NCBI GenBank assembly: GCA_016189905.1 | Contig: JACPRP010000040.1 | Span: 1 to 64,000 of the forward strand | Reading direction: 5' to 3' | DNA length: 64,000 nt | Source: Chloroflexota bacterium | GTDB lineage: Bacteria > Chloroflexota > UBA6077 > FW602-bin22 > JACPRP01 | In this document: positions 37,372 to 52,200 of the stretch, piece by piece | Layout: each line of letters starts with the position of its first letter | Numbering within the stretch: position 1 is the first letter of the stretch | Position numbers and translations under genes: made by a program | The notes under the pieces: model-generated | Told to the model about the DNA's origin: nothing | Databases searched by the model: none | The model's input: only the letters and a program-made list of their open reading frames with translations

Positions 37372-38568
37372 CTATCGCTTGTACTTACCCAATGTCTGTA
37401 CGACGTAATCCGCGAACTGATTGTCGATGAGGTCCTTGAGGTCGACCTTTTGTGAAAGGAAGCCATTGGCGGCGTACCAGTCCTGATCCTGTGCAATGCT
37501 TTCGGCGTTCACATAGGCATCGGGGTTCAGCCCAGAAAACACTACCTTATCGTAGAGGTCCCGCTGCTTCAACGAGGTTCGCTTCATCATAATGCTGATG
37601 ACCTCTTCGCGCGCCTTCGGATCCTTTTTTACAAAGGCGTCGTTGTAATCTCTGTAGGCCTTGATGTAAGCCAGAAGGAAGCGCTTACCTACATCCGCCC
37701 GCTCCTGAGCGAACTTGCCCGAGTAAATCAGGACGGCTACCTGATGATTGGGGTAGATCTCGTCAGTGCCTTTCCAGCGCACGTGCAGGCCCTGGTCGAT
37801 GCCCATCGTCAGAAAGGGCTCCATCACAAACCCCGCGTCGACCGATTTCCCGGCGAAGGCGGCGTTCATGTCGGCGAAGCCTAGATCAACGATATTCACG
37901 TCTTTCCAGGTCAGACCGACTGTGTTCATCACAATGTCGAGTTCCGGATGATTCGCGGCGCCCGCCTTGCCTGCAGGTACTGCGACGTTCTTGCCCTTCA
38001 AATCCTCAACTTTTCTGATAGCGCCGCTATCCCAGAGGTCTTTCCTCACGACCAGCCAGATATAGCCCATGCCCGGCGGCACACTCGCTTTATCCGCCAC
38101 TATCTTCATAGGGATGCCCCGCTGAACGGCATTGAAGAGACCGGGAGTGGCGCTCAAGCCAGCTATCTCGACTTCACCAGTAGCCAGCAACTGGATCATC
38201 TGCGGGGCCTGCGTGGCCCCCACCACGGTGAGATCGATGTTCTGCTCTTTGAAGTAGCCCTTCTCATCGCCGATAAAGTAGCCTGCATCCGAGGCCCGGC
38301 CCGCCGGGTCCACCGCGATCTTCACCGTTGCCGCCGTGGGCTTCGGTGCGGCCGCCGCCTTGGTGGGTGCAGGCGCCGCCTTGGTCGGTGCGGCCGCCGC
38401 CTTTGTCGGTGCAGCCGCTGCTTTGGTGGGCGCAGCCGCCGGCGCCTTTGTCGGCGCGGGCGCGGAAGTCGGTGTCGGCGTAGGCGCCGCGGCGCACGCA
38501 ACCACGAGCGACAGAAGCAGGGCAAAGGTTACCGAGAGTCCCAGGGAGACCGATCGAGTACGATCCAT
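37372..38568 (-). CDS. NitT/TauT-type ABC substrate-binding lipoprotein 1
   Basis: A 398-residue lipoprotein. The signal ends LLSLVVACAAAPT with a lipid-anchored Cys. A long low-complexity spacer of APTKAA-like repeats (about residues 28-75) keeps the domain away from the membrane. The binding domain starts VKIAVDPAG and has the NMT1/SsuA-like fold pattern (GYFKEQNIDL, LKGKNVAVPAG, FVMEPFLTMG). No permease or ATPase lies nearby. GGAGGTG precedes ATG 38568. It is about 75 percent similar by eye to the protein at 38977, and both have nearly identical 5' leaders, so they are recent duplicates. Ligand unknown. Confidence 0.84.
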   Translation of the reverse strand: MDRTRSVSLGLSVTFALLLSLVVACAAAPTPTPTSAPAPTKAPAAAPTKAAAAPTKAAAAPTKAAPAPTKAAAAPKPTAATVKIAVDPAGRASDAGYFIGDEKGYFKEQNIDLTVVGATQAPQMIQLLATGEVEIAGLSATPGLFNAVQRGIPMKIVADKASVPPGMGYIWLVVRKDLWDSGAIRKVEDLKGKNVAVPAGKAGAANHPELDIVMNTVGLTWKDVNIVDLGFADMNAAFAGKSVDAGFVMEPFLTMGIDQGLHVRWKGTDEIYPNHQVAVLIYSGKFAQERADVGKRFLLAYIKAYRDYNDAFVKKDPKAREEVISIMMKRTSLKQRDLYDKVVFSGLNPDAYVNAESIAQDQDWYAANGFLSQKVDLKDLIDNQFADYVVQTLGKYKR

Positions 38569-38639: not shown

Positions 38640-38800
38640 GTCAGAAGATAGCGACTTAAGGAGTCACTTATGAATCCCACGCTACAATGCGGAGGCCCCA
38701 CGGCGGGTATGGATAACTTAGCTACGGGTCGTTACTCTACGGTGAGCCGTTATCGGTAAAATAAGAGGCATAAGGTGCTGCGGTGAAAGCCTCTTAGCTA
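38640..38800 (-). ncRNA. Structured leader RNA, copy 1
   Basis: The 5' leader of NitT-like gene 1. On the RNA strand, UAAGAGGC (38796-38789) pairs with GCCUCUUA (38769-38762) around a 19-base loop, followed by a CCG-AUAA-CGG hairpin (38756-38747) and a third stem around GGGGCCUCCGCA with CCCGC/GCGUGGG arms (38707-38675). The leader is nearly identical to copy 2 at 40250 although it precedes a different gene. Loops are as conserved as stems. I do not recognise a known riboswitch class. This is an inference from comparison of copies inside the window. Confidence 0.6.
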
Positions 38801-38805
38801 CGCGC

Positions 38806-38834
38806 AATATAACATCTGGACAGTGGCTTGTCAA
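38806..38834 (-). promoter_or_regulatory. Promoter of NitT-like gene 1 and the downstream TctC gene
   Basis: Minus strand TTGACA (38829-38834), 17 bp, TATATT (38806-38811). The same arrangement occurs at four other units here. Confidence 0.8.
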
Positions 38835-38976: not shown

Positions 38977-40167
38977 CTATTTTTTGTACTTGCCCAACGT
39001 CTGCACGGCGTAATCCGCGAACTGGTTGTCGATCACGTCTTTGAGGTCAACCTTCTGCGGGAGATAACCGTTGGCAGCGTACCAATCTTGATCTTTGGCG
39101 ATGCTCTCGGCGTTAGCGTAGCCGTCGGGATTCAAGCCAGGGAATATGAGCTTGTCGTACTGATCACGCTGTTTGAGCGACGTGTTCTTCATCAGGATGT
39201 CGATGACCTCCTGACGTGCTTTCGGGTCTTTCTTCACAAAGGCGTCGTTATAATCGCGAACGCCCTTCAGGTAGGCGTTGTAGAATCTTTTGGCGACTTC
39301 GGTTCGCTCCTGAGCGAACTTGCCCGAGTAGATCGAGACGGCGACCTGGTGATTGGGGTAGATCTCGTCGCTGCCCTTCCAGCGCACGTACAGACCCTGC
39401 TCGAGGCCCATCGTGAGCAGCGGCTCCATCGGGAAGCCCGCGTCGACGGATTTTCCGGCGAAGGCGGCGTTCATATCGGCGAAGCCGAGGTCAACGATGT
39501 TTATGTCTTTGATGCTCAGGCCGACCGTCTGCAATAAGAGGTCGACCTCGACGTGATTGGCGGCGCCGCCCTTGCCAGCGTTCAGGGTGACGTTCTTGCC
39601 CTTCAAATCCTCGACTTTCCTGATGGCGCCGCTATCCCAGAGGTCTTTCCTCACCACGAGGGCGATGTAGCCCATTCCAGGGGACACGCTCGCCTTGTCG
39701 GCGACCACCTTGAGGGGGATGCCCCGGCCGATGGCGTTGAACAGGGCAGGACTGATGCTGCCACCGCCGGCCTCGATCTCGTTCGTCGCCAGCAACTGGA
39801 CCATCTGAGGCGCCTGCGTGATGCCCAGCTCCTCGACCTGAATGTTCTGTTCTTTGAAGTAGCCTCTCTCGCGGGCGATGAAGTAGCCGGCATCGGAGGA
39901 TCGACCGACGGGGTCAACCCCAAACTTCACCGAAGCCGCCGCGGGCTTTGGTGCGACCGCCGCCTTTGTCGGCGCCGGGGCCGCCTTGGTAGCCTCGGCC
40001 GCTACTGTGGGCGCGGCCGCCTTGGTGGGTGCAGCCGCCGGCGCCTTGGTCGGCGCAGGCGCGGATGTCGGTGTTGGCGTGGGCGCCGCGGCACACGCAA
40101 CTAACAGCGATACGAGCAGGGCTGAGGTTACCACGAGACCAAAGGAGACTAATCGAGCACGATCCAC
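38977..40167 (-). CDS. NitT/TauT-type ABC substrate-binding lipoprotein 2
   Basis: A 396-residue lipoprotein and close paralogue of the one at 37372. Signal ends LLVSLLVACAAAPT; an Ala/Pro/Thr/Lys-rich spacer follows; the binding domain begins VKFGVDPVG. The main differences from paralogue 1 are around the pocket: QAPQMVQLLATNEIEAGGGSIS replaces QAPQMIQLLATGEVEIAGLSAT, which may shift ligand choice. GTG 40167 lies four bases after GGAGGTGG; the ATG upstream at 40221 is inside the leader. It forms its own unit with a terminator at 38878. No transport partner is visible. Confidence 0.84.
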   Translation of the reverse strand: MDRARLVSFGLVVTSALLVSLLVACAAAPTPTPTSAPAPTKAPAAAPTKAAAPTVAAEATKAAPAPTKAAVAPKPAAASVKFGVDPVGRSSDAGYFIARERGYFKEQNIQVEELGITQAPQMVQLLATNEIEAGGGSISPALFNAIGRGIPLKVVADKASVSPGMGYIALVVRKDLWDSGAIRKVEDLKGKNVTLNAGKGGAANHVEVDLLLQTVGLSIKDINIVDLGFADMNAAFAGKSVDAGFPMEPLLTMGLEQGLYVRWKGSDEIYPNHQVAVSIYSGKFAQERTEVAKRFYNAYLKGVRDYNDAFVKKDPKARQEVIDILMKNTSLKQRDQYDKLIFPGLNPDGYANAESIAKDQDWYAANGYLPQKVDLKDVIDNQFADYAVQTLGKYKK

Positions 40168-40249: not shown

Positions 40250-40395
40250 CTTAGGTGTTACTTTGGGAATCCCACGCTACATTGCGGAGGCCCCACGGCG
40301 GGCACGGATAACTCAGCTACGGGTCGTTACTCTACGGTGAGCCGATATCGGCAAATTAAGAGGCATAAGGTGCTGCGGTGAAAGCCTCTTAGCTA
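40250..40395 (-). ncRNA. Structured leader RNA, copy 2
   Basis: The leader of NitT-like gene 2. P1: UAAGAGGC (40391-40384) with GCCUCUUA (40364-40357). P2: the self-complementary GCCGAUAUCGGC (40352-40341). P3: CCCGC (40302-40298) with GCGUGGG (40277-40271), enclosing GGGGCCUCCGCAAUGUA. Conservation with copy 1 extends across about 170 bases; the first gene-proximal bases diverge more. Confidence 0.6.
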
Positions 40396-40400
40396 CGCGC

Positions 40401-40429
40401 AATATAACATCTGAACAATGGCTTGTCAA
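40401..40429 (-). promoter_or_regulatory. Promoter of NitT-like gene 2
   Basis: Minus strand TTGACA (40424-40429), 17 bp, TATATT (40401-40406). The sequence around it matches the copy at 38806-38834. Confidence 0.8.
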
Positions 40430-42203: not shown

Positions 42204-43721
42204 TCAGGGCAGCCTCGGCTCGGCGGCGGCGTTCTGGCCGGCGATTCTGCCCGAGGTGAAGCACTCGCTGAGATTGCCTCCCAACTGGTAGAGGTGGCCA
42301 AAGAAAGAGCCAAGCTCGCCGACGGCGTAAAGGCGCGGGATCGGCTGGCCGAACGCGTCGATGACCTGTTGCCTGGCGTTGTGCACCGGGCCTCCCTGAG
42401 TATTCGTGATCATCGGCCAGACCTGCGCCGCATAAAATGGCGGCTGCACCAGCGGCATCATCGTGCCCGGAGGGCGATTGAACCTGTCCTTACCGGCCTC
42501 CACGCTGACGTTCCACTCGGCTACAGTCGCCGCTAACCGCTCGGCGTCCATCCTCCCCTCGTTCTCGGGGAAGCGCTCCCTGATGGCCTCCGCCAGCCCG
42601 GCGACGCTATCCGCTTTGACGATCCAGCCTTTCTCGATCTCTTGACTGTTATCTTCGCTCCACTCATATTCGTAGCCAGGGAAGGCCATCGGGCGGGCGA
42701 TAGGGCCAGCCTCCCGGCCCTTCTCATCAAAGAGCATATAAGAAGGAATGCGCGGGTAACCTGGCAGATCGGGATCGAAGATCTCCATCGGGCGATATCC
42801 AGTATCCTGCGGCGCCGGCGGATACTCGTCCATGTATCTCGAACCCAGCTTGTCGACCACGACCCACGGCATCTTTCGTTTAGGGTTGCGATAGCCCGGA
42901 ATCGAGTGCCGGTAGGCGATGGGGGAATCGGGTGTCTTGAAGCCGTAGGAGCCGTGAAGGAGCCACATGTGCCACAGCGCCGCGCCCACCTTTTGCGCCA
43001 TGAGAATGCCGTCCCCTGTGTGCGTGAGTGGACCCATCGAGTAAAATGGAATGCCCTGCAGGTATTGCTTTTTAAGCCAGTCGTTCTGCTCGAAGCCGCC
43101 GGTGGCGAGGATCACGGCTTGACGGGCACGGATGGCGAGTTCTTGTCCGTCTTTTTCGACGATTGCGCCGACCACAGCCCCCGAATCGTCGGTCTCCAAA
43201 CGACGGGCCGGCGTGGAGAGCATCGCCTTTATGCCTCGGGACTCGACGTTGTCGACGGTCACTTTGATAAGATTCACCCCCGCGAGCTTGTTGCGGCAGA
43301 GCAGCCAGTCGAAGCCGTCGAAGCCGGGGACCCTGGGCACTCGAATGCTGTACCAGGTTTCCTGGCCGGGATAGGGATAGCTGCCCTGTTGGCCAGGCAC
43401 CCTCCTGACCTCGGCGCCGTCGATGGCCCCCAGTTCGCGGATGAAGGCCTCGTTTCCCGCGAGGGCCTCGGCGAAAGTGCGAATGATGTCGGTTTCCATT
43501 CGCCCACCCGAGATGGCCGTGAGGTACTGGAAGGCCGCCTCCGCGTCCGCCGCGCACAGGATCTGCCCGCCGGCGAAGATCGAGCATCCGCCCGGGTACT
43601 GGTTCTTCTCGACGATGAGCACGTCGGCTCCGCCGTCTCGGGCTATGACAGCCGCCACGCCGCCAGCCAGTCCATAGCCGACGACGAGCACATCAGTTTC
43701 AATATCCCAAGCTTGTCGCAT
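42204..43721 (-). CDS. FAD-dependent oxidoreductase, FAD_binding_2 type
   Basis: A 505-residue flavoprotein of the fumarate reductase / ketosteroid dehydrogenase superfamily. It starts with a Rossmann loop, DVLVVGYGLAGGVAAVIA, then IVEKNQYPGGCSIFAGG, has VILATGGFEQND in the middle and ends RLYAVGELGSFFGHLYQLGGN. It should oxidise or reduce a C=C bond next to a carbonyl; I cannot name the substrate. It is the last gene of the dehydratase operon, with AGGAGG overlapping the preceding stop. A role in reducing or desaturating the product of the radical enzyme is a reasonable guess. Confidence 0.85.
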   Translation of the reverse strand: MRQAWDIETDVLVVGYGLAGGVAAVIARDGGADVLIVEKNQYPGGCSIFAGGQILCAADAEAAFQYLTAISGGRMETDIIRTFAEALAGNEAFIRELGAIDGAEVRRVPGQQGSYPYPGQETWYSIRVPRVPGFDGFDWLLCRNKLAGVNLIKVTVDNVESRGIKAMLSTPARRLETDDSGAVVGAIVEKDGQELAIRARQAVILATGGFEQNDWLKKQYLQGIPFYSMGPLTHTGDGILMAQKVGAALWHMWLLHGSYGFKTPDSPIAYRHSIPGYRNPKRKMPWVVVDKLGSRYMDEYPPAPQDTGYRPMEIFDPDLPGYPRIPSYMLFDEKGREAGPIARPMAFPGYEYEWSEDNSQEIEKGWIVKADSVAGLAEAIRERFPENEGRMDAERLAATVAEWNVSVEAGKDRFNRPPGTMMPLVQPPFYAAQVWPMITNTQGGPVHNARQQVIDAFGQPIPRLYAVGELGSFFGHLYQLGGNLSECFTSGRIAGQNAAAEPRLP

Positions 43722-43730
43722 AGAAACCTC

Positions 43731-45158
43731 CTAAGCACATGAAAGCATCTCGACGAACGCTTCGATGCGGTTATCGGTTTGTTCGACCGATTCGCCGCGT
43801 CCCAGGGCATCGCTGAAAATGGTCATGCAGGGGATGTCGCTTTCCTTCTGCACGATGTCGCAGACCAGGCGCGCAACCGCCGACTGGAAGTTGCACCCCC
43901 ATTGATAGCCGAAGATCAGCCCGTCGGCGCGCGACTGCTTGACCTGATCGACCACCCAGCGCGCGCGCTCCTCGGTGGGCAGATCGTAGGGCTCCAATAG
44001 AGTGCCGCGAGCATAGTTCCCGTAGGGATCGCCCTCCTCGTGCACGTCAGGCATCCAGACGTAGCTCCAGCGATCGTCGGCGCCGACGAGGACACCGCCG
44101 GCGCTATCCAGCTTGTGCAGATTCGGATCGAAGCAGGAGCCACACTTGAAAACCCGCACCGGACGCGCGGCTAGCTCGGCGCCGCTCTGCGATCTGGCGA
44201 CCCTCTCGCGCACCTCATCGCGCATCTGTGCGAGCACGTGCTCGGCGGCGACCGGATCGGCATCACAGTCTTTGCCCATCGCGAGGATGCCGTAGAACAT
44301 GGCGCTGCCGGTGGGCGGAACTGCGGCCGATCTGAATAGCTCGACGATCTCACGGGTCAGCCCGCGAATCCGATTGTGAGCGCGAATCTGAGCCCGAAAC
44401 TCTTCGTCTGTCGTCGTCCGGCCGGTCACCTCATCCAGCTTCGCTATCAAACGCCGGATGCCGGCGGCCACGTAGTCCACGGCCCAGCTCTTGTGGCGCT
44501 CATAGTTTGGCGGATAATCCACCAGCAAGCTCTCGGTTTTCAGCGGATTGGAGCGGTGGGATTCGACGAGGAAGGTCACGTCCGAACAGCGCGTGCGCGT
44601 GTAGGGCGCCAGTAACGAGACCGGCACGACACCGTTACGAATCGCCGTGTGGCATGTAACCTGACGACAGGTCTCGTAAGCAACCACGCGGTTCCCTTCC
44701 TCGTGAATATCGGCTTTTTTCCAGTCCTTGTTCCGCAGGTTCAGCCCCTCGGCCACGTAGTAGCACGCCAGGGTCGTCATATCGCCCGGTCGCAGCGGAA
44801 CCACGTCGGCCGCGTAGTAAGGCTCTAGCGTCTGTCCACCCTGCACGTAAATCAGAGGCTTTCCCTGCTGCCGCAGCTTCTCCACCCTGAACCGTCGTGA
44901 GATAACCAGATAATTCAGCTTGAGGCCGCTGATCAGATCGACGTAATAGGGCAAGCGCTGCGGCGAATTCGGGTTGCTGGTAAACACGAAGGGGAACTTG
45001 CGCGGGCCCTCGTCAGTCATAAACTCCCAGATTTCCTCTGGCGAAACCGTTGTGCCGTCCCGAAGAGGCAGCGGACCTGTCGCGAGAAACTGCTCCTTGA
45101 TCTCTTGCGGATAATAAAGCAGGTCGTTCTTGACCACCATCGGATAGATATCCGGCAT
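43731..45158 (-). CDS. 2-hydroxyacyl-CoA dehydratase-family protein, long form B2
   Basis: A 475-residue protein of the HgdB/BcrBC family, about 80-100 residues longer than usual subunits. Candidate Fe-S cysteines are in YETCRQVTCHTAI, FKCGSCFDPN and GYQWGCNFQSA. The C-terminus (IPCMTIFSDALGRGESVEQT...RIEAFVEML) is the family ending. It resembles the long forms at 45209 and 50214 (about 65-70 percent identical by eye) but is the most divergent of the three and starts with a different sequence. Such subunits pair to hold the site where a one-electron reductant drives elimination of water or ring reduction on a CoA ester. Substrate unknown. Confidence 0.82.
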   Translation of the reverse strand: MPDIYPMVVKNDLLYYPQEIKEQFLATGPLPLRDGTTVSPEEIWEFMTDEGPRKFPFVFTSNPNSPQRLPYYVDLISGLKLNYLVISRRFRVEKLRQQGKPLIYVQGGQTLEPYYAADVVPLRPGDMTTLACYYVAEGLNLRNKDWKKADIHEEGNRVVAYETCRQVTCHTAIRNGVVPVSLLAPYTRTRCSDVTFLVESHRSNPLKTESLLVDYPPNYERHKSWAVDYVAAGIRRLIAKLDEVTGRTTTDEEFRAQIRAHNRIRGLTREIVELFRSAAVPPTGSAMFYGILAMGKDCDADPVAAEHVLAQMRDEVRERVARSQSGAELAARPVRVFKCGSCFDPNLHKLDSAGGVLVGADDRWSYVWMPDVHEEGDPYGNYARGTLLEPYDLPTEERARWVVDQVKQSRADGLIFGYQWGCNFQSAVARLVCDIVQKESDIPCMTIFSDALGRGESVEQTDNRIEAFVEMLSCA

Positions 45159-45180
45159 TGCCTTGCCCCCTTTCCTAACC

Positions 45181-45203
45181 AGAAAGCGCCGACCTGGCGG
45201 CGC
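45181..45203 (-). terminator. Hairpin with T-run between dehydratase genes
   Basis: On the minus strand GCGCCG, loop, CGGCGC, then TTTCT. A matching hairpin follows the duplicate gene at 50186. It lies inside the operon, so it may reduce expression of the two genes after it. Confidence 0.6.
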
Positions 45204-45208
45204 ATCAG

Positions 45209-46639
45209 CTACGCGGCGTAGGAGAGCATCTCGACAAAGGCCGCGATGCGATTTTGGGTTTGTTCGGTCGATTCACCACGCCCCAGCTCGTCGAGACTGA
45301 GGGTGGTCGCGGGGATATCGGTTTCCTTCTGCACTATGTCGCAAACCATACGCGCGACGGCTGACTGGAAGTTGCACCCCCACTGGTAACCGAAGATCAG
45401 ACCCTCGGCTCGCGACATCCTGACCTGATCGACGATCCAGGCCGCGCGGTCCTCCGTGGGAAGATCGTACGGCGCCGACAGGGTCGTCCTGGCATAGTTC
45501 GCGAAGATATCGCCTTCCTCCTCTACGTCTGGCGTCGAGATATCGCTCCACCAGTCATCGGCGCTGACGAGCGCGCCTCCTGCCCGGTCCAGCGCGTGAA
45601 AGTTTATGGCGATGCACGAGCCACACTTAAATATGCGGGCAGGCCGCTCGGCCAATTCCCCACCCTTCAAAGGCACCGCCGTTCGCTCCCGCACCTCATC
45701 ACGCAATTGTGTCAGTACGTGCTCCGCCGCCACCGGATCGCCATCGCAATCCTTGCCCAGCGCGAGAATGCGGTAGACCAGCACGCTGGACGCAGGCGGA
45801 ACAGGCGCGGCCCTCCAGACCTCGATCGTCTCGCGCGCCAGGCGCCGAACGCGGTTGTAGGCGCCTATCTGCCGGCGGAAATCATCGGCCGTCGTCGTCT
45901 TGCCCGAAATGGCGTCAATTCTGGCGATCAATTGTCGGATGTTCTCGGCCACGTACTCCACGGCCCACGTCTTGTCAGGCGCGTAGTTGGTAGGATAGTC
46001 CACGAGGAAACAGTCAACCTTCCTCGAGCTGTCGCGATGGGACTCGACGAGGAAGGTCGCGTCCGAGCAGCGCACCCGCGTGTAAGGGGCGACCAGATCC
46101 ACCGGCACCACGTTGTTGCGGATCGCCGCGTGGGTGGTGATCTGATGGCAGGCCTCCATCGAGACGGTGCGGCTTCCTTCCTCGCGGATGTCTATCTTCT
46201 TCCAATCCTTGTTCCGAATGTCCAGGCCTTCGGCCACGTAGTAGCACGCCAGCTCCGTCATATCGCCGGGCCGCAGGGGAAGAGCATCGGCGGCGTAATA
46301 AGGCTCCAGCGGCTGGCCACCCTGCACCAGCACCAGAGGCTTGCCTAGTTTTCGCATCTTCTCCACCCTGAAGCGCCGCGAAATGATCATGTAGTAAAGC
46401 TTGATGCTGCCGATCAGATCGACGTAGTAGGGCAGGCGCTGCGGAGAGTTGGGATTGCTGGTGAACATGTAGGGGAACCTGCGCGGTCCCTCGTCGGTCA
46501 TAAACTCCCAGATTTCCTCCGGCGACGCCCGCGTCCCGTCCCGAAAGGGCAGCGGGCCGGTGGCCAGAAACCGCTCTTTGATCTCTTCAGGGTAGAGCAG
46601 CAGGCCGTCTCTCTCCACCATGCTGTAGCTCTCTAGCAT
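45209..46639 (-). CDS. 2-hydroxyacyl-CoA dehydratase-family protein, long form B1
   Basis: A 476-residue HgdB/BcrBC-family subunit. It begins MLESYSMVERDGLLLYPEEI; cysteines appear in FKCGSCIAINF, GYQWGCNFQSA and RMVCDIVQ. It is nearly the same as the protein at 50214 (over 85 percent by eye). The AAGGAGGCGGC ribosome site, the ATGCTAGAGAGC start and the downstream hairpin are also shared, so one is a copy of the other. ATG 46639 overlaps the preceding stop by seven bases. It probably pairs with the 394-residue short subunit encoded just upstream. The frame continues upstream, but the shared ribosome site fixes this start. Confidence 0.84.
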   Translation of the reverse strand: MLESYSMVERDGLLLYPEEIKERFLATGPLPFRDGTRASPEEIWEFMTDEGPRRFPYMFTSNPNSPQRLPYYVDLIGSIKLYYMIISRRFRVEKMRKLGKPLVLVQGGQPLEPYYAADALPLRPGDMTELACYYVAEGLDIRNKDWKKIDIREEGSRTVSMEACHQITTHAAIRNNVVPVDLVAPYTRVRCSDATFLVESHRDSSRKVDCFLVDYPTNYAPDKTWAVEYVAENIRQLIARIDAISGKTTTADDFRRQIGAYNRVRRLARETIEVWRAAPVPPASSVLVYRILALGKDCDGDPVAAEHVLTQLRDEVRERTAVPLKGGELAERPARIFKCGSCIAINFHALDRAGGALVSADDWWSDISTPDVEEEGDIFANYARTTLSAPYDLPTEDRAAWIVDQVRMSRAEGLIFGYQWGCNFQSAVARMVCDIVQKETDIPATTLSLDELGRGESTEQTQNRIAAFVEMLSYAA

Positions 46640-47817
46640 GCCGCCGCCTCCTTTTCCTCTCGCTGCATGTAAATCACGTCGATGAAGCTCTCCACACGCG
46701 TCCGCAGCGCCTCCACATCGGACGGAGAGTATTCGGTGTGTATCTCGAGGAAAGGCACGCCGAGCTTTTCCTGCATATATTTCATCGTGGCATTGGCCTT
46801 GAAGGTGAACGGGTCGCAGAAGCGCAGCGTGTGGTAGATCATGCCCTCTGCCCGGTGCTCTTTGGCCAGTTGGACCATCGTCGTGAAGCGCTTGTCTTCG
46901 TCCAATGGCAAGAGGCACGGCAGGGAGGCGCACGGGATGCGATCGAGGTAGGCATCGGCGAGGCCATCCAGCGAGTGGTCGTGCACCATCAGCTCCTTGT
47001 GGAAGCGCAAGCCGGTGCAGAGATCGTCGACGACGATCCGGCCCCCCAGTTGCTCGATGAGGTCGATGATCTTTGTGTCCCCTGGCGCCAGTATGCTGCC
47101 AGAAACGAAGATGCGCGGTCGGTTATTAGGCTTAGCCGTCTCTCCCACCGACTCGACCTCGGTCAGAAGGTCCTTCAACAGCGACAGATATTGCCGGCGA
47201 TCCAGGTAGAAACCTGCCTGGACCACATCGAATATGTCACGCCAACTGATCGGCGATGCATCCCGCGATTGACGCGCGTAGAGCTCGAGGATGGCTTCAC
47301 GAATCTGCCGATACAATTCTATCGACTCGCTCAGTCGCCCAGGCTCAAGCGTGCGCCCAGTCATCGCCTCGACCTGTCGGACGAAGTCGGCCATCTCGTG
47401 CCTGAAGAACACCCTGCCCTCGGGCAGGTAGAAGTTGCGGGGCACTCCCAGGGCCACCACTTCTGGCTTGAAGTAGTATTTCACTAGCTCCGACAGTCGG
47501 AACATCTGGATGCACGTGCCGGCCACCGCGACGAAGTCCGAGTTCTGCACGTAGGGGTCCTTCCCGTCGGCGAAAAGCCCCACGGATTCCCTGATGAACA
47601 CGCAGTTGTTCGTCGACACGTAGCGTGCGCCCAGGTCGACGAGTGTCTCATCGCCCCCACGCCCCAGCCGCACGGGAATCAGTCCCAACGCGTCGATTAT
47701 CTCTTCGGGTATGTAGCAGCAGAAATAGCCCAGCACTTTCTCGCCTCTGGCCCTCGCCTCTATCAGCTCGCTCGGCCGACGCTCTACTGCCTGACGGATG
47801 CGTTCCAATGTTTTCAT
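46633..47817 (-). CDS. 2-hydroxyacyl-CoA dehydratase-family protein, short form A
   Basis: A 394-residue subunit of ordinary family length. It contains VLGYFCCYIPEEIIDALGLIPVRLG, the usual N-terminal pattern, and three cysteines expected to bind a [4Fe-4S] cluster: STNNCVFIRE, VAGTCIQMF and LRFCDPFTFK. The ATG at 47817 overlaps the activator stop (ATGA), which fixes the start. A longer frame exists upstream but runs antisense-like through the activator gene. Short plus long subunit pairs occur in benzoyl-CoA reductases of the Bzd type and in hydroxyacyl-CoA dehydratases; this sequence alone does not separate the two. Confidence 0.86.
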   Translation of the reverse strand: MKTLERIRQAVERRPSELIEARARGEKVLGYFCCYIPEEIIDALGLIPVRLGRGGDETLVDLGARYVSTNNCVFIRESVGLFADGKDPYVQNSDFVAVAGTCIQMFRLSELVKYYFKPEVVALGVPRNFYLPEGRVFFRHEMADFVRQVEAMTGRTLEPGRLSESIELYRQIREAILELYARQSRDASPISWRDIFDVVQAGFYLDRRQYLSLLKDLLTEVESVGETAKPNNRPRIFVSGSILAPGDTKIIDLIEQLGGRIVVDDLCTGLRFHKELMVHDHSLDGLADAYLDRIPCASLPCLLPLDEDKRFTTMVQLAKEHRAEGMIYHTLRFCDPFTFKANATMKYMQEKLGVPFLEIHTEYSPSDVEALRTRVESFIDVIYMQREEKEAAAC

Positions 47818-48599
47818 CCTCGCGCTGCCCTGCCTTTCGCGATAATTGCCGCGCCGATCGCGCCGACGAGCTGTGGATCGCCCGGCAGGCCAATCGGCGC
47901 GATACCCAGAAGCTCCCCGACGACAGATTGCATGCCGACATTCTTGCCCACGCCGCCGGTGAAGGCCAGCTCCGACTCGACACCCACGCGCGAAAGCAAT
48001 CCGGCTACACGCCGTCCGACGGAATAGTGGACCCCGGCGACGATGTTCTCGGGTTTTTCGCCCCTGGCCATCAGGCTGATGCACTCCGATTCGGCGAAGA
48101 TGGTGCAGGTGCTGCTCACCGGAACCCGTTCGGTCGCCGTGTTGCACAACTGGCCCAGCTCCGCGACCTCTACCTCGAATACTTTTGCGACCACTTCCAG
48201 GAAGCGGCCGGTGCCGGCGGCGCACTTGTCATTCAGGACGAAGTTGACCACCTGTCCTCTTTCCCCAACACGTATCGCCTTGCAATCCTGTCCGCCGATG
48301 TCGAGCACCGTCCTCACTTTGGGGTTCAGGTAGTACGCTCCCATGGCGTGGCAGGTTATCTCGGTGGTCGTGCCGTTGGCGAACGGGGCGACAATACGCC
48401 CATAGCCAGTGGCCACGGTGAATCGAACATCGTCAGAGCGCAGATTTGCCTTTTCCAGGGCCTGTTCGAGGGCCATTCGTCCGCTCCGCTCGGAGCTAAC
48501 CCTCGTAGGCACCACCGCGTGGGACAGAATGTCCCGATCGTTCATAATGACCGCCTTGGCGGCCACGGACCCAATGTCTACTCCCGCAAAAGCTCCCAC
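47814..48599 (-). CDS. Dehydratase/reductase activating ATPase (HgdC/BcrAD family)
   Basis: A 261-residue ASKHA-fold ATPase. It starts MGAFAGVDIGSVAAKAVI and has VLDIGGQDCKAI, NDKCAAGTGRFLE, CTIFAESECISL and TGGVGKNVG. The two half-sites of a homodimer share one [4Fe-4S] cluster through the conserved Cys. It uses ATP to push one low-potential electron into the dehydratase or reductase. The GTG at 48599 is nine bases after AGGAGG. One activator for several partner subunits is economical and suggests the paralogous subunits swap on one machine. Confidence 0.92.
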   Translation of the reverse strand: MGAFAGVDIGSVAAKAVIMNDRDILSHAVVPTRVSSERSGRMALEQALEKANLRSDDVRFTVATGYGRIVAPFANGTTTEITCHAMGAYYLNPKVRTVLDIGGQDCKAIRVGERGQVVNFVLNDKCAAGTGRFLEVVAKVFEVEVAELGQLCNTATERVPVSSTCTIFAESECISLMARGEKPENIVAGVHYSVGRRVAGLLSRVGVESELAFTGGVGKNVGMQSVVGELLGIAPIGLPGDPQLVGAIGAAIIAKGRAARG

Positions 48600-48649: not shown

Positions 48650-49819
48650 CTACTGGTATCGGCCAAGTTGCTGGATCGCGTAATCTACGTACTGGCTATC
48701 GACGAAATCCTCGGGCTTTGGCTTCTCTTTGATCTGCCCGGTTTGCAAGAGCCAGTCCACCTGTTGCATCAGGCTGTCCATGTTGAGATAGCCGTCAGGG
48801 TTCAGCCCGGGAGGCGCTATCTTTTCCCATAGGGCGGCGTCCTTCATCGTCGTCGCCTGAACGAGCATCCTGATTATCTCGGACTTGCTCTTGTTCTTCA
48901 TAAAGGCGTCGTTGTAATCCCTGGCGCCCTTGATGTAGGCGATCATGAAGCGCCTGGCTACGTCGGGCTTTTCCTTCATAAACGCCTCTGAATACGATAT
49001 CCCCGTGAGTTGGTGATCGGGGGTCGCCTCGTCGAAGCCCAGAACACGAACGGCGACGCCCGCCTCAATGGCCTTGACGACCGTTGGCTCCGACACCACC
49101 CCAGCGTCGATGCTGCCTCCGGCAAACGCCGCTGGCATATCGGTGATCTTGAGATCGACCAGGTCGACGTCGTCCATCGTGAGCCCGACCGTCTTAAGCG
49201 CAGTATAAAGATTGTAGCCGTTGACGCTGGCCTTGGCAGGTGGCGCGATGGCAACCTTCATGCCCTTCAGGTCAGAAAGGCCTTTGTACTTTCCCTGATC
49301 CACCAGGTCTTTGCGCACCAGGAGGGCGATGAAACCGTTACCTTTCGACAATCTTCCCTTGTCGGCGACGCCCTTCACGCGGACGCCTCGCGCCAGCGCG
49401 TTGTAGAAAGCGGCGCTGCCCATCACTCCGGCCACTTCTAACTGGCCTGTCGACAGGGCAGGCACCATCTCTCCCGCCGCGCTGAACGGCTCGAACTGAA
49501 ACTGGATACCTTGCTCTTTGAAGTAGCCCCTGCCATCGGCGATAAAAAGGCTCGCGTCAGAGGCCCCCCCTTGCAGCCCAACGCGCACGACGGCGAGGTC
49601 TTTGGGGGCCGAAGCAGCAGCAGCGGGGGTGGCGGACTCTGTCGCCGGCGTCGCCGCCTTCTCCTGTTGTTCCACCTTGGCAGCCGCCGTCGGCTTCGGC
49701 TGCTCGGAGGACGGCTTCGCCTTTTCGACGGGCGGCGCAGACTGCGTACAGCCTGCCAGACCCAGAGTTAAAGCCACGACAGCGATAACGCCTGTGAGGA
49801 TCAGGTAGTTTCTGCTCAT
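48650..49819 (-). CDS. NitT/TauT-type ABC substrate-binding lipoprotein 3
   Basis: A 389-residue lipoprotein. The signal ends LTLGLAGCTQSAP with Cys as anchor; a short Lys/Pro/Glu-rich spacer follows. The domain begins VVRVGLQGGASDASLF and has GYFKEQGIQFQFEP and LKGMKVAIAPPAKAS. It is the first gene of the dehydratase operon, 50 bp before the activator, which ties ligand binding directly to the radical enzyme. It is more distant from paralogues 1 and 2. The start is ATG 49819 with AAAGGAG upstream. No permease or ATPase accompanies it. Confidence 0.84.
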   Translation of the reverse strand: MSRNYLILTGVIAVVALTLGLAGCTQSAPPVEKAKPSSEQPKPTAAAKVEQQEKAATPATESATPAAAASAPKDLAVVRVGLQGGASDASLFIADGRGYFKEQGIQFQFEPFSAAGEMVPALSTGQLEVAGVMGSAAFYNALARGVRVKGVADKGRLSKGNGFIALLVRKDLVDQGKYKGLSDLKGMKVAIAPPAKASVNGYNLYTALKTVGLTMDDVDLVDLKITDMPAAFAGGSIDAGVVSEPTVVKAIEAGVAVRVLGFDEATPDHQLTGISYSEAFMKEKPDVARRFMIAYIKGARDYNDAFMKNKSKSEIIRMLVQATTMKDAALWEKIAPPGLNPDGYLNMDSLMQQVDWLLQTGQIKEKPKPEDFVDSQYVDYAIQQLGRYQ

Positions 49820-49924: not shown

Positions 49925-50080
49925 AATCGATCGGGAGAATCTCGCGCCGTGGTGCGGATTCCGTGGCAGGCACAAAGATAGCATTAATTCATTAACCATC
50001 ATTGCTGCGACGATGCAGATAACGTTGCCGTCGTGGCAACCCAAACAAGAGGATTTCTCCTGCGGACAATGTGCGTTATA
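49925..50080 (-). ncRNA. Structured leader RNA, copy 4 (divergent)
   Basis: The leader of NitT-like gene 3 and the dehydratase operon. RNA strand: GUCCGCAGGAGAAAUCCU (a small AGGA/UCCU hairpin, 50061-50050), CUCUUG, then UUGCC-ACGAC-GGCAA (50039-50025), and further down GUGCCUGCC...UCCGCACC...GCGCG (49972-49932). The first 40 bases align with copy 5 at 52060, and the 3' part with copies 1-3. Weaker than copies 1 and 2. Confidence 0.45.
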
Positions 50081-50086
50081 CAAGAG

Positions 50087-50115
50087 AATATAGTACCTTA
50101 TGGAATGCTTGTCAA
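50087..50115 (-). promoter_or_regulatory. Promoter of the dehydratase operon
   Basis: Minus strand TTGACA (50110-50115), 17 bp, TATATT (50087-50092). Spacer begins AGCAT as in the promoter at 52025. Confidence 0.8.
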
Positions 50116-50213: not shown

Positions 50214-51644
50214 TTACGCGGCGTAGGAGAGCATCTCGACGAAAGCCGCGATGCGATTTTGGGTTTGTTCGGTCGATTCGCCACGTCCCAGCTCGTCGAG
50301 GCTGAGGGTTGTCGTGGGAATGCCGGCTTCCTTCTGCACGATGTCACAGACCATGCGTGCAACCGCCGATTGAAAGTTACATCCCCACTGATAACCGAAG
50401 ATCAGCCCCTCGGCTCGCGACTGCCTGATCTGGTCCAGGATCCAACGCGCTCGCTTCTCGGTTGGAAGCTCGTAGGGCGCTGATAGCGTCGCGCGGGCAT
50501 AATTCTCGAATATGTCGCCTTCCTCTTCGACGTCTGGTATCGAAACATCGCTCCAGCCGTCGTCGGCGCTGACGAGCGCGCCTCCCGCACGGTCCAGCGC
50601 GTGAAGGTTCAGGACGACGCACGAGCCGCACTTGAATATACGCGCCGGCCGCTCCGCCAGTTCTCCACCCTTCAAAGGGATCGCCGTTCTCTCCCGTACC
50701 TCATCCCGGAATTGTGTGAAAATGTGCTCGGTGGCCACCGGATCGCCATCGCAATCCTTGCCTAGCGCGAAAAGACGGAACAACAGCACGCTGGCAGCCG
50801 GAGGAACAGGCGCGGACCTCCAAGCCTCGACCGTCTCCCGTGCCAGGCGGCGAATGCGGTTGTAAGCGCGAACCTGCCGGCGGAAATCGTCCGCCGTCGT
50901 CGTCCTACCCGAAACGGCGTCTGTCCTCGCGATCAATCGCCGGACGTTCTCGGCGACGTACTCCACGGCCCACGTCTTGTCAGATATATAGTTAGTAGGG
51001 TAGTCCACGAGAAAAGTGTCGACCTTCCTGGGGCTATCACGGTGGGCCTCGGCGAGGAAAGTCACGTCGGAGCAGCGCGCGCGTGTGTAAGGCGCGATCA
51101 GGTCCACCGGCACCACGTCGTTGCGGATCGCCGCGTGGGCGGTGATCTGGTGGCAGGCCTCCATCGACACGGTACGGCTCCCCTCCTCGCGGATGTCTAT
51201 CACCTTCCAATCCTTGTTCCGGATATCCATTCCCTCGGCGACGTAGTAGCACGCGAGTTCCGTCACGTCGCCGGGCCGCAGGGGAAGAGCATCGGCGGCG
51301 TAATAAGGCTCCAGCGGCTGGCCACCCTGCACCAGCACCAGGGGCTTCCCCTGTTTTCGCAGCCGCTCTACCCTGAAGCGCCGCGAGACGATCAGGTAGT
51401 AGAGCTTGATGCTGCCGATCAGATCGACGTAGTAGGGCAGGCGCTGTGGGGAGTTGGGATTGCTGGTGAAGATGTAGGGGAACCTGCGCGGTCCCTCGTC
51501 GGTCATAAACTCCCAGATTTCCTCCGGCGACGCCTGCGTTCCATCCCGAAAGGGCAGCGGGCCGGTGGCCAGAAACCGCTCCTTGATCTCTTCAGGGTAG
51601 AGGAGCAGGCCATCCCGCTCCACCATTCTATGGCTCTCTAGCAT
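50214..51644 (-). CDS. 2-hydroxyacyl-CoA dehydratase-family protein, long form B3
   Basis: A 476-residue near-copy of the protein at 45209, starting MLESHRMVERDGLLLYPEEI with the same ribosome site. Candidate Fe-S cysteines in FKCGSCVVLNL and GYQWGCNFQSA are kept, so it looks functional. Unlike B1 it is a single-gene unit with its own promoter and a structured leader, so its level can change apart from the operon. It may replace B1 in the complex under some condition. The substrate is not known. Confidence 0.84.
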   Translation of the reverse strand: MLESHRMVERDGLLLYPEEIKERFLATGPLPFRDGTQASPEEIWEFMTDEGPRRFPYIFTSNPNSPQRLPYYVDLIGSIKLYYLIVSRRFRVERLRKQGKPLVLVQGGQPLEPYYAADALPLRPGDVTELACYYVAEGMDIRNKDWKVIDIREEGSRTVSMEACHQITAHAAIRNDVVPVDLIAPYTRARCSDVTFLAEAHRDSPRKVDTFLVDYPTNYISDKTWAVEYVAENVRRLIARTDAVSGRTTTADDFRRQVRAYNRIRRLARETVEAWRSAPVPPAASVLLFRLFALGKDCDGDPVATEHIFTQFRDEVRERTAIPLKGGELAERPARIFKCGSCVVLNLHALDRAGGALVSADDGWSDVSIPDVEEEGDIFENYARATLSAPYELPTEKRARWILDQIRQSRAEGLIFGYQWGCNFQSAVARMVCDIVQKEAGIPTTTLSLDELGRGESTEQTQNRIAAFVEMLSYAA

Positions 51645-51774: not shown

Positions 51775-51921
51775 AAGAACCCTATGCTACGCTGCGGAGG
51801 CCCAAATAGGGGGCATCGGTAACACCACCTTTGGTGTTGTCCATTCGCCACGATGAGGCAGAGATCACAAGCCCAAGAGAAAAGGCAGGACTAGTTGTCT
51901 CGAAAGCATTTGGACTAGGCG
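51775..51921 (-). ncRNA. Structured leader RNA, copy 3
   Basis: The leader of long form B3. The 3' stem is CCCUAU (51811-51806) with AUAGGG (51785-51780), a different sequence from CCCGC/GCGUGGG in copies 1-2 but the same pairing. The enclosed loop keeps GGGCCUCCGCA and GUAGC. Between stems there is an ACAACACC...GGUGUUAC hairpin not seen in the others. The first stem is less clear than in copies 1, 2 and 5. Confidence 0.55.
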
Positions 51922-51922
51922 G

Positions 51923-51951
51923 AATATAGCATCTGTCCGGTTGATTGTCAA
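51923..51951 (-). promoter_or_regulatory. Promoter of long form B3
   Basis: Minus strand TTGACA (51946-51951), 17 bp, TATATT (51923-51928). It is divergent from the promoter at 52025. Confidence 0.8.
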
Positions 51952-52024: not shown

Positions 52025-52053
52025 TTGACAAGCATACTATAAGATACTATATT
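52025..52053 (+). promoter_or_regulatory. Promoter of the TctC-like gene at 52377
   Basis: TTGACA (52025-52030), 17 bp, TATATT (52048-52053). Confidence 0.8.
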
Positions 52054-52059
52054 CCGCAT

Positions 52060-52200
52060 GGACTACGCGTCGTCCGTAAGAGAAGCCCTCTTGATGGTTG
52101 CCAACGTCGGCAAAATCTAGCGGGTTGTAAGAGAACTGCGCAACAGCGGCCGTCGCCTGCACTTCCACAGCTAGGGAATCCATTATTTACGTGGTTCTGA
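52060..52200 (+). ncRNA. Structured leader RNA, copy 5 (divergent)
   Basis: AAGAG/CTCTT hairpin with a five-base loop (52078-52092), then TTGCC/GGCAA with a six-base loop (52098-52113). Their order, spacing and flanking GTCCG and CTCTTG match copy 4. Further on, GCCTGCAC...AGCTAGGGAATCC (52157-52180 region) loosely resembles the third stem of other copies. Confidence 0.45.

Follow-up and report, generated by a model that had tools for sequence, protein, structure and literature searches.

The leader preceding a dehydratase-like gene in the window (the whole 64,000-nt stretch of DNA analysed here) belongs to a family of structured 5' leaders, of which pattern and profile searches revealed at least 14 confident members in the genome, the window containing four. 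It is a real, conserved cis-regulatory RNA structure encoded on the minus strand, and the 14-member regulon that it defines goes beyond the original finding both in size and in support. Control by an RNA-binding response regulator of the ANTAR type is the leading explanation of its action, with a riboswitch or an antitermination RNA as live rivals. The three copies given in a preliminary description of this DNA, denoted m1, m2 and m3, all hold; a fourth copy in the window, m14, and ten located elsewhere in the genome had been missed. The features of the window are collected in Table 1.

Table 1. Leader copies, their promoters and adjacent genes in the window
Feature	Position	Strand	Remarks
m3 promoter, TTGACA-17-TATATT	51923..51951	-	TG before the -10 box; 11/12 consensus
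Leader m3 with its promoter	51951-51760	-	strong promoter, followed by ~272 nt of leader and the ATG of the HGD-D gene
m3 structured core, P2-P5	51761..51868	-	R2, 83.5 bits with filters off, m3 being in R2's own set; exact pattern also matches
m3 P2, CCUC[AUCGUG]GCGA	51845..51858	-	hexaloop with A1 and G4; outer pairs weakened
m3 P3, AACACC[AAAGGU]GGUGUU	51821..51838	-	predicted fold
m3 P4, GCCC/GGGC	51800..51814	-	predicted probability 0.97; competes with the stem described earlier
m3 P5, CGC[AGCGUA]GCA	51785..51796	-	hexaloop with A1 and G4; stem of two pairs, against three in most copies
Stem described earlier, CCCUAU (51811-51806)/AUAGGG (51785-51780)	51780..51811	-	sequence present, helix not conserved
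Gene after m3, HGD-D family protein	50214..51644	-	PF06050, 6.7e-39
m14 promoter	50087..50115	-	
Leader m14	49930..50028	-	found with R2; P2 is CUGC[AUCGUC]GCAG
Gene after m14, NMT1-type solute-binding protein	48650..49819	-	PF09084, 4.2e-19
m2 promoter	40401..40429	-	
Leader m2	40251..40352	-	copy 2 of the earlier description; 81.0 bits
Gene after m2, NMT1-type solute-binding protein	38977..40167	-	
m1 promoter	38806..38834	-	
Leader m1	38656..38757	-	copy 1 of the earlier description; 81.9 bits
Gene after m1, NMT1-type solute-binding protein	37372..38568	-	
Truncated relative of the m14 promoter and 5' domain	52025..52113	+	no P2-P5; local alignment score 70, maximum 27 in 300 shuffles

Copies of the Leader in the Genome

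The bases originally quoted are all present on the minus strand: CCCTAT and ATAGGG of m3, and the 11-mer GGGCCTCCGCA, which occurs in the window exactly three times, each time on that strand. The 11-mer is not rare once one mismatch is allowed. In the 3.53-Mb genome the 17-mer GGGCCTCCGCANNGTAG is matched perfectly at exactly three places and TCCGCANNGTAGCNNNGGNTTC at four, and in a search of 101 genomes the reversed TCCGCANNGTAGCNNNGGNTTC, used as a control, gave no match in the leaders' own genome, even at one mismatch.

A sequence-only model, R1, was built from six leaders found by pattern, and the genome search with it returned these six together with seven new copies (m7–m13), each located behind the same promoter type. 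R2, a structure model derived from 13 copies, added m14 with E=3e-4 within the window, m14 being absent from the model. The final model, R3, gives the fourteenth copy 39.9 bits, against 19.1 bits for the best match after it, which lies inside a coding sequence. The copies used in model building match by construction, m7–m13 are independent of R1, and m14 is independent of both R1 and R2.

Every copy is headed by a sigma-70-type promoter of the same type, and, counted from the inferred transcription start, hairpin P2 begins between about +46 and +64. Of the 13 copies with a P5 candidate, 12 have hairpin P5 placed 42–48 nt after P2 and one, m12, has it 62 nt away; P5 is absent from m11. The start codon lies anywhere between 48 and 252 nt beyond P5. 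No intrinsic terminator was found between the transcription start and the start codon in any of the 14 leaders. Further degenerate copies, retaining the promoter type and fragments of P2, are located upstream of other NMT1 genes (C105:4038, C117:12332 and C116:98315); they score below the noise and are not counted. The truncated relative at 52025-52113 is divergently oriented and lies upstream of a gene for a TctC-type binding protein, and a decayed small ORF seems to come next.

Conserved Structure

The consensus of P2 is the hairpin CCUC[AUCGUN]GAGG (loop in brackets), followed in order by P3, P4 and P5. With the copies aligned by the loop only, all four pairs of P2 show double, compensatory changes (CCUC/GAGG, GCUC/GAGU, CCUU/AAGG, CUUC/GAAG and CUGC/GCAG), to an extent attained by none of 500 shuffles and not even approached in any slid register; in m3, m5 and m7 the pairing of P2 is weak. 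The structure of P2 is thus under selection. P5, with the consensus CGC[ANNGUN]GCG, is paired in 92% of cells and shows one double change, CAC/GUG, P4 (CCC/GGG) is paired in 77% of cells family-wide, and P3 (e.g., AACACC/GGUGUU or CAGCA/UGCUG), which varies in length and is partly captured, in 62%. The structure as a whole beats every shuffle and every slid register in an alignment that was fitted to structure and leans towards it. Outside the hexaloops the segments AAAGAC, UUAUC, GGAAUCC and GAUUC are conserved.

A different helix had been named as the conserved stem, one formed by CCCGC/GCGUGGG in m1 and m2 and by CCCUAU/AUAGGG in m3. It is paired in 55% of cells against a shuffle mean of 58%, and 439 of 500 shuffles reach its value. 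This pairing of CCC with GGG beyond P5 can be drawn on paper in m1–m3 only, where its predicted probability does not exceed 0.022; the CCC pairs locally with the GGG of P4 instead, and P4 or P5 dominates. The preliminary description was thus right about the pattern of a conserved RNA structure, but the compensatory changes are those of P2, and the helices concerned are other than the stem named.

Both P2 and P5 carry hexaloops of a defined type. In the P2 loop G4 is present in all 14 copies and A1 in 11, with G1 in m4, m6 and m8, while in the P5 loop A1 is present in 13 of 13 and G4 in 11 of 13 copies (m13 and m14 lack it), positions 2, 3 and 6 varying freely. Within their first 170 nt the 14 leaders contain 17 strict A1/G4 hexaloop hairpins, compared with 1.9 expected and a maximum of six in 300 shuffled sets, a count that is only descriptive because the copies are related. 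Two strict hairpins with three perfect pairs occur in only four leaders; apart from m11, most of the others have one perfect hairpin and one that is mismatched or has G1. In m5 (L045, C116:52811-52832, minus strand) an extra perfect A1/G4 hairpin, CGC[AUCGUA]GCG, lies just upstream of P2, giving a short-linker tandem; m6 and m10 have hairpins similar to this one, with U1.

Genes Downstream of the Leaders

Genes for NMT1-type solute-binding lipoproteins lie behind 10 of the 14 copies (m1, m2, m4, m5, m6, m9, m10, m11, m12 and m14), and enzyme genes behind the remaining four, including m3, for which this had been stated from the outset. The m3 gene encodes an HGD-D protein (2-hydroxyacyl-CoA dehydratase/benzoyl-CoA-reductase-like) with weak, below-cut-off NCBIfam matches to double-cubane reductases and benzoyl-CoA reductase C. 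Behind m7 is the gene of a TPP enzyme resembling benzoylformate decarboxylase and acetolactate synthase, m8 precedes a gene for an arylmalonate-decarboxylase-like protein, and m13 one for a UbiD decarboxylase resembling the beta subunit of phenylphosphate carboxylase. The earlier proposal of a single signal linking uptake with metabolism is supported, since the same leader stands before transport and enzyme genes alike, and the evidence favours an RNA regulon for nutrient uptake and aromatic-acid breakdown, in which uptake by NMT1-type proteins is linked to catabolism by HGD-D, UbiD, TPP and arylmalonate-decarboxylase-like enzymes. At the m5 locus the order is leader, NMT1 gene, Amdase gene and a second NMT1 gene.

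The genome has 51 NMT1 protein matches, 38 of them at E below 1e-15 compared with 12 in the sister genus. Most of the 51 genes are without a leader of this kind, and many are operon-internal or located behind other enzymes. The leader offers a handle on this unusually expanded set of binding proteins, because genes sharing it should answer the same signal. Another member of the class, G018, has at least 70 NMT1-type solute-binding proteins.

Several further observations concern the surroundings of the leaders. Within the window, at 42204-48225 on the minus strand, genes for three more HGD-D proteins and a flavocytochrome c/ketosteroid-dehydrogenase-like flavoprotein lie in tandem, an arrangement that suggests a cluster for anaerobic acyl-CoA or aromatic reduction. 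A fluoride riboswitch (RF01734, 39.6 bits, L054 2802-2876, plus strand) is located near m12 and is unrelated to the family. Two contig ends (L135, C116 at ~99 kb, and L053, C19 at ~9.9 kb) share the stretch TCAAGCATTAAGAGTTCACTTTTCAGTCGTTACTGACA, probably a repeat that broke the assembly; it immediately precedes the promoter of an NMT1 gene in one case and leader m13 in the other.

Distribution

Among the genomes searched the leader is confined to this one. Outside it, the pattern search in 101 genomes gave coding or noise matches only, as did R2 in 29 members of the class, and in 400 genomes of the phylum R2 found this genome alone at E<=1e-6. A degenerate pattern run over the GTDB species gave 23 scattered, chance-like matches (the best of 21 bits), and no copy was seen in the NMT1 upstream regions of the sister genus (8) or of an NMT1-rich class member (12); these negatives reach as far as the sensitivity of the models and the content of the collections, in which the leaders' own genome may be missing.

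Possible Control by an ANTAR Protein

One ANTAR protein over the cut-off is encoded in the genome (C41:10182-10775; ANTAR match at C41:10584-10742, E=1.1e-22); it combines REC and ANTAR domains and is PdtaR/EutV-like. Its best PDB matches are 1s8n ('putative antiterminator', 8e-61), which we take to be Rv1626/PdtaR, and 6wsh/6ww6 (EutV, 3e-43). In an alignment read by eye for the residues named in PMC8934654, Lys143, Met172, Asn173 and Arg175 are kept, and Lys147, Arg168 and Arg177 are replaced by Arg, Gln and Ser, respectively. The adjoining gene encodes a kinase with GAF_PdtaS and HisKA_2 domains. According to published work, ANTAR binding is determined by A1 and G4 of hexaloops (PMC3369931, PMC8164766), and in the EutV complex G4 makes the sole base-specific contact (PMC8934654). 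The ligand-binding riboswitch implied in the preliminary description receives no support from the anatomy of the leader: both conserved hairpins have A1/G4 hexaloops, which favour an RNA-binding ANTAR response regulator over a small ligand, the less probable alternative.

The chances are evenly balanced that the leaders are signal-controlled ANTAR leaders of unusual architecture, with a long structured linker and no terminator. The hexaloops of P2 and P5 would be bound by the single ANTAR response regulator of the genome once it is phosphorylated, the adjacent PdtaS-like kinase being the putative phosphoryl donor. The variable distance of P5 from the start codon and the lack of an intrinsic terminator would place control on the nascent transcript, at the level of elongation, Rho access or stability. 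Since P5 lies far, and at a variable distance, from the start codon, the leaders are unlikely to act in general by directly covering the ribosome site.

Several features count against this explanation. The linker of 42–48 nt, with P3 and P4 inside it, exceeds the 2–25 nt of the known ANTAR targets (PMC8164766), and longer linkers in the eut leaders reduce or abolish function or antitermination (PMC3369931, PMC8934654). In none of the 14 leaders does an intrinsic terminator overlap the second hairpin, as it does in targets of the firmicute/proteobacterial type, and the conservation outside the hexaloops is greater than ANTAR binding needs. The weak P2 of m3, m5 and m7, the missing P5 of m11 and the loss of G4 from P5 in m13 and m14 also fit poorly. 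As expected of ANTAR targets, A1/G4 hexaloop hairpins are present and an ANTAR protein is encoded in the same genome, the latter being non-specific: 23 of 29 members of the class have a PdtaR-like ANTAR protein, and since the leader is confined to one of the searched genomes, co-occurrence lends no support. The leaders are therefore not filed in the classical dual-hexaloop family; what is claimed, at about even confidence, is that they work like ANTAR-controlled leaders.

Alternative Explanations

A somewhat less probable view, though one to be taken seriously, is that the family represents a new regulatory RNA class, which would serve as an aptamer for a metabolite or else act on RNA polymerase from a position close to the promoter, and which has spread in one lineage to at least 14 uptake and catabolic operons. 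Its first form, a new metabolite riboswitch with P1–P5 folded into an aptamer that binds an aromatic or organic acid, or the CoA ester of such an acid, common to the controlled operons, and acts in cis without a protein, is possible but rather doubtful. The leader does have a conserved structure under selection, as a metabolite riboswitch should, conservation extends into the single-stranded segments between the helices, the regulon is coherent around acid uptake and decarboxylation, and there are several independent copies in the genome that match no Rfam family. A1/G4 hexaloops in both conserved hairpins would, however, be an unlikely coincidence for an arbitrary aptamer, the distance between P5 and the start codon is highly variable, and absence from the other lineages searched is unusual for riboswitches. 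In m1, m2, m4 and m6 a predicted pairing between the ribosome-binding site and the P4/P5 region made it attractive to think of an anti-Shine-Dalgarno switch operating through CCUCC of P5; the match is no better than in swapped pairs (permutation P=0.058, the pairs being related), and the switch was not accepted.

The second form, in which an RNA close to the promoter would modify RNA polymerase along the entire operon by processive antitermination, in the manner of HK022 put or the EAR/LoaP leaders, is unlikely. It would agree with the fixed distance of the structure from the transcription start, the variable distance to the gene and the lack of a local terminator, and such RNAs are known (PMC9378689, PMC12691694). 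The genome also encodes a second NusG-domain protein (L197 1288-1827, minus strand), but its gene adjoins, as judged by eye, one for a CpsB/CapC-type phosphatase-like protein, a setting typical of polysaccharide loci, so this paralogue is likely an elongation factor of such a locus and is not favoured as the effector of the leaders. Moreover, the ops-like motif GTAGCGT is not kept in all copies, and there is no independent hint of contact with the polymerase. Intrinsic antitermination was rejected, no terminator having been found in the leaders.

That the copies are recently duplicated promoter/5'UTR cassettes, similar by descent only and devoid of a regulatory RNA function, is highly improbable. 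The near-identity of m1 and m2, which are recent duplicates, the truncated relative on the plus strand and the presence of all copies in one genome fit this notion; the other copies, however, have diverged strongly and yet keep the pairing of P2 through double changes (0 of 500 shuffles), their loop positions are fixed and the P2–P5 spacing is constant. A chance resemblance confined to a segment of 35 bases in m3, for which only its short length and the tolerance of the 11-mer to a mismatch could speak, is practically excluded, since promoter, leader of ~110 nt and hairpins P2–P5 of m3 align with the other copies, and the alignment, found by the models and not by the 11-mer, extends over ~150 nt from promoter to P5 at 14 loci.

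Significance

If the ANTAR explanation is true, at least 14 distinct operons for uptake and catabolism in one uncultivated bacterium are governed through their RNA by a single two-component system, a one-signal, many-operon circuit of RNA control that would be new to description. A long, structured linker of constant length without a terminator would escape the present searches for ANTAR RNAs, limited as they are to linkers of 2–25 nt, and the question would arise by what means an ANTAR protein can regulate where no intrinsic terminator is present, which is relevant to the PdtaS/PdtaR branch. If the ANTAR explanation fails, the family is a new class of structured leaders.

Comparison with Known Systems

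The NMT1 motif (xanthine) riboswitch, too, has been reported upstream of NMT1-type binding-protein genes. Unlike it, the leaders match no Rfam family at E up to 5-10: the covariance models of 4227 families, applied with gathering and permissive thresholds, matched none of the copies, and the scan of the window gave only one sub-threshold chance match. With the RfaH ops element and the LoaP and put leaders the family shares a promoter-proximal position. The sequence GTAGCGTG of m1 and m2 resembles ops; it is not kept across the copies, where GUGGC, GUUGC, GUAAC and GUCGC occur.

The eutP/EutV, nasF/NasR and amiE/AmiR systems (PMC3369931, PMC8934654) likewise have A1/G4 hexaloop hairpins in the 5' leaders of uptake or catabolic operons, and a further point in common is the REC-ANTAR regulator and the HisKA_2-family kinase encoded in the genome. 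In those systems a short single-stranded linker separates the hexaloops, whereas here 42–48 nt and two additional conserved hairpins intervene; no intrinsic terminator overlaps the second hairpin, and the leaders occupy at least 14 loci in one genome, to which the kinase/regulator pair is unlinked. The actinobacterial ANTAR RNAs differ in their linkers of 2–25 nt and in that ~37% of them overlap the ribosome site or start codon (PMC8164766), P5 being located here 48–252 nt upstream of the start. With the actinobacterial PdtaS/PdtaR system the genome nevertheless shares a close PdtaR homologue and a PdtaS-type kinase, and many of the actinobacterial targets are, like the leaders described here, free of a terminator (PMC8164766).
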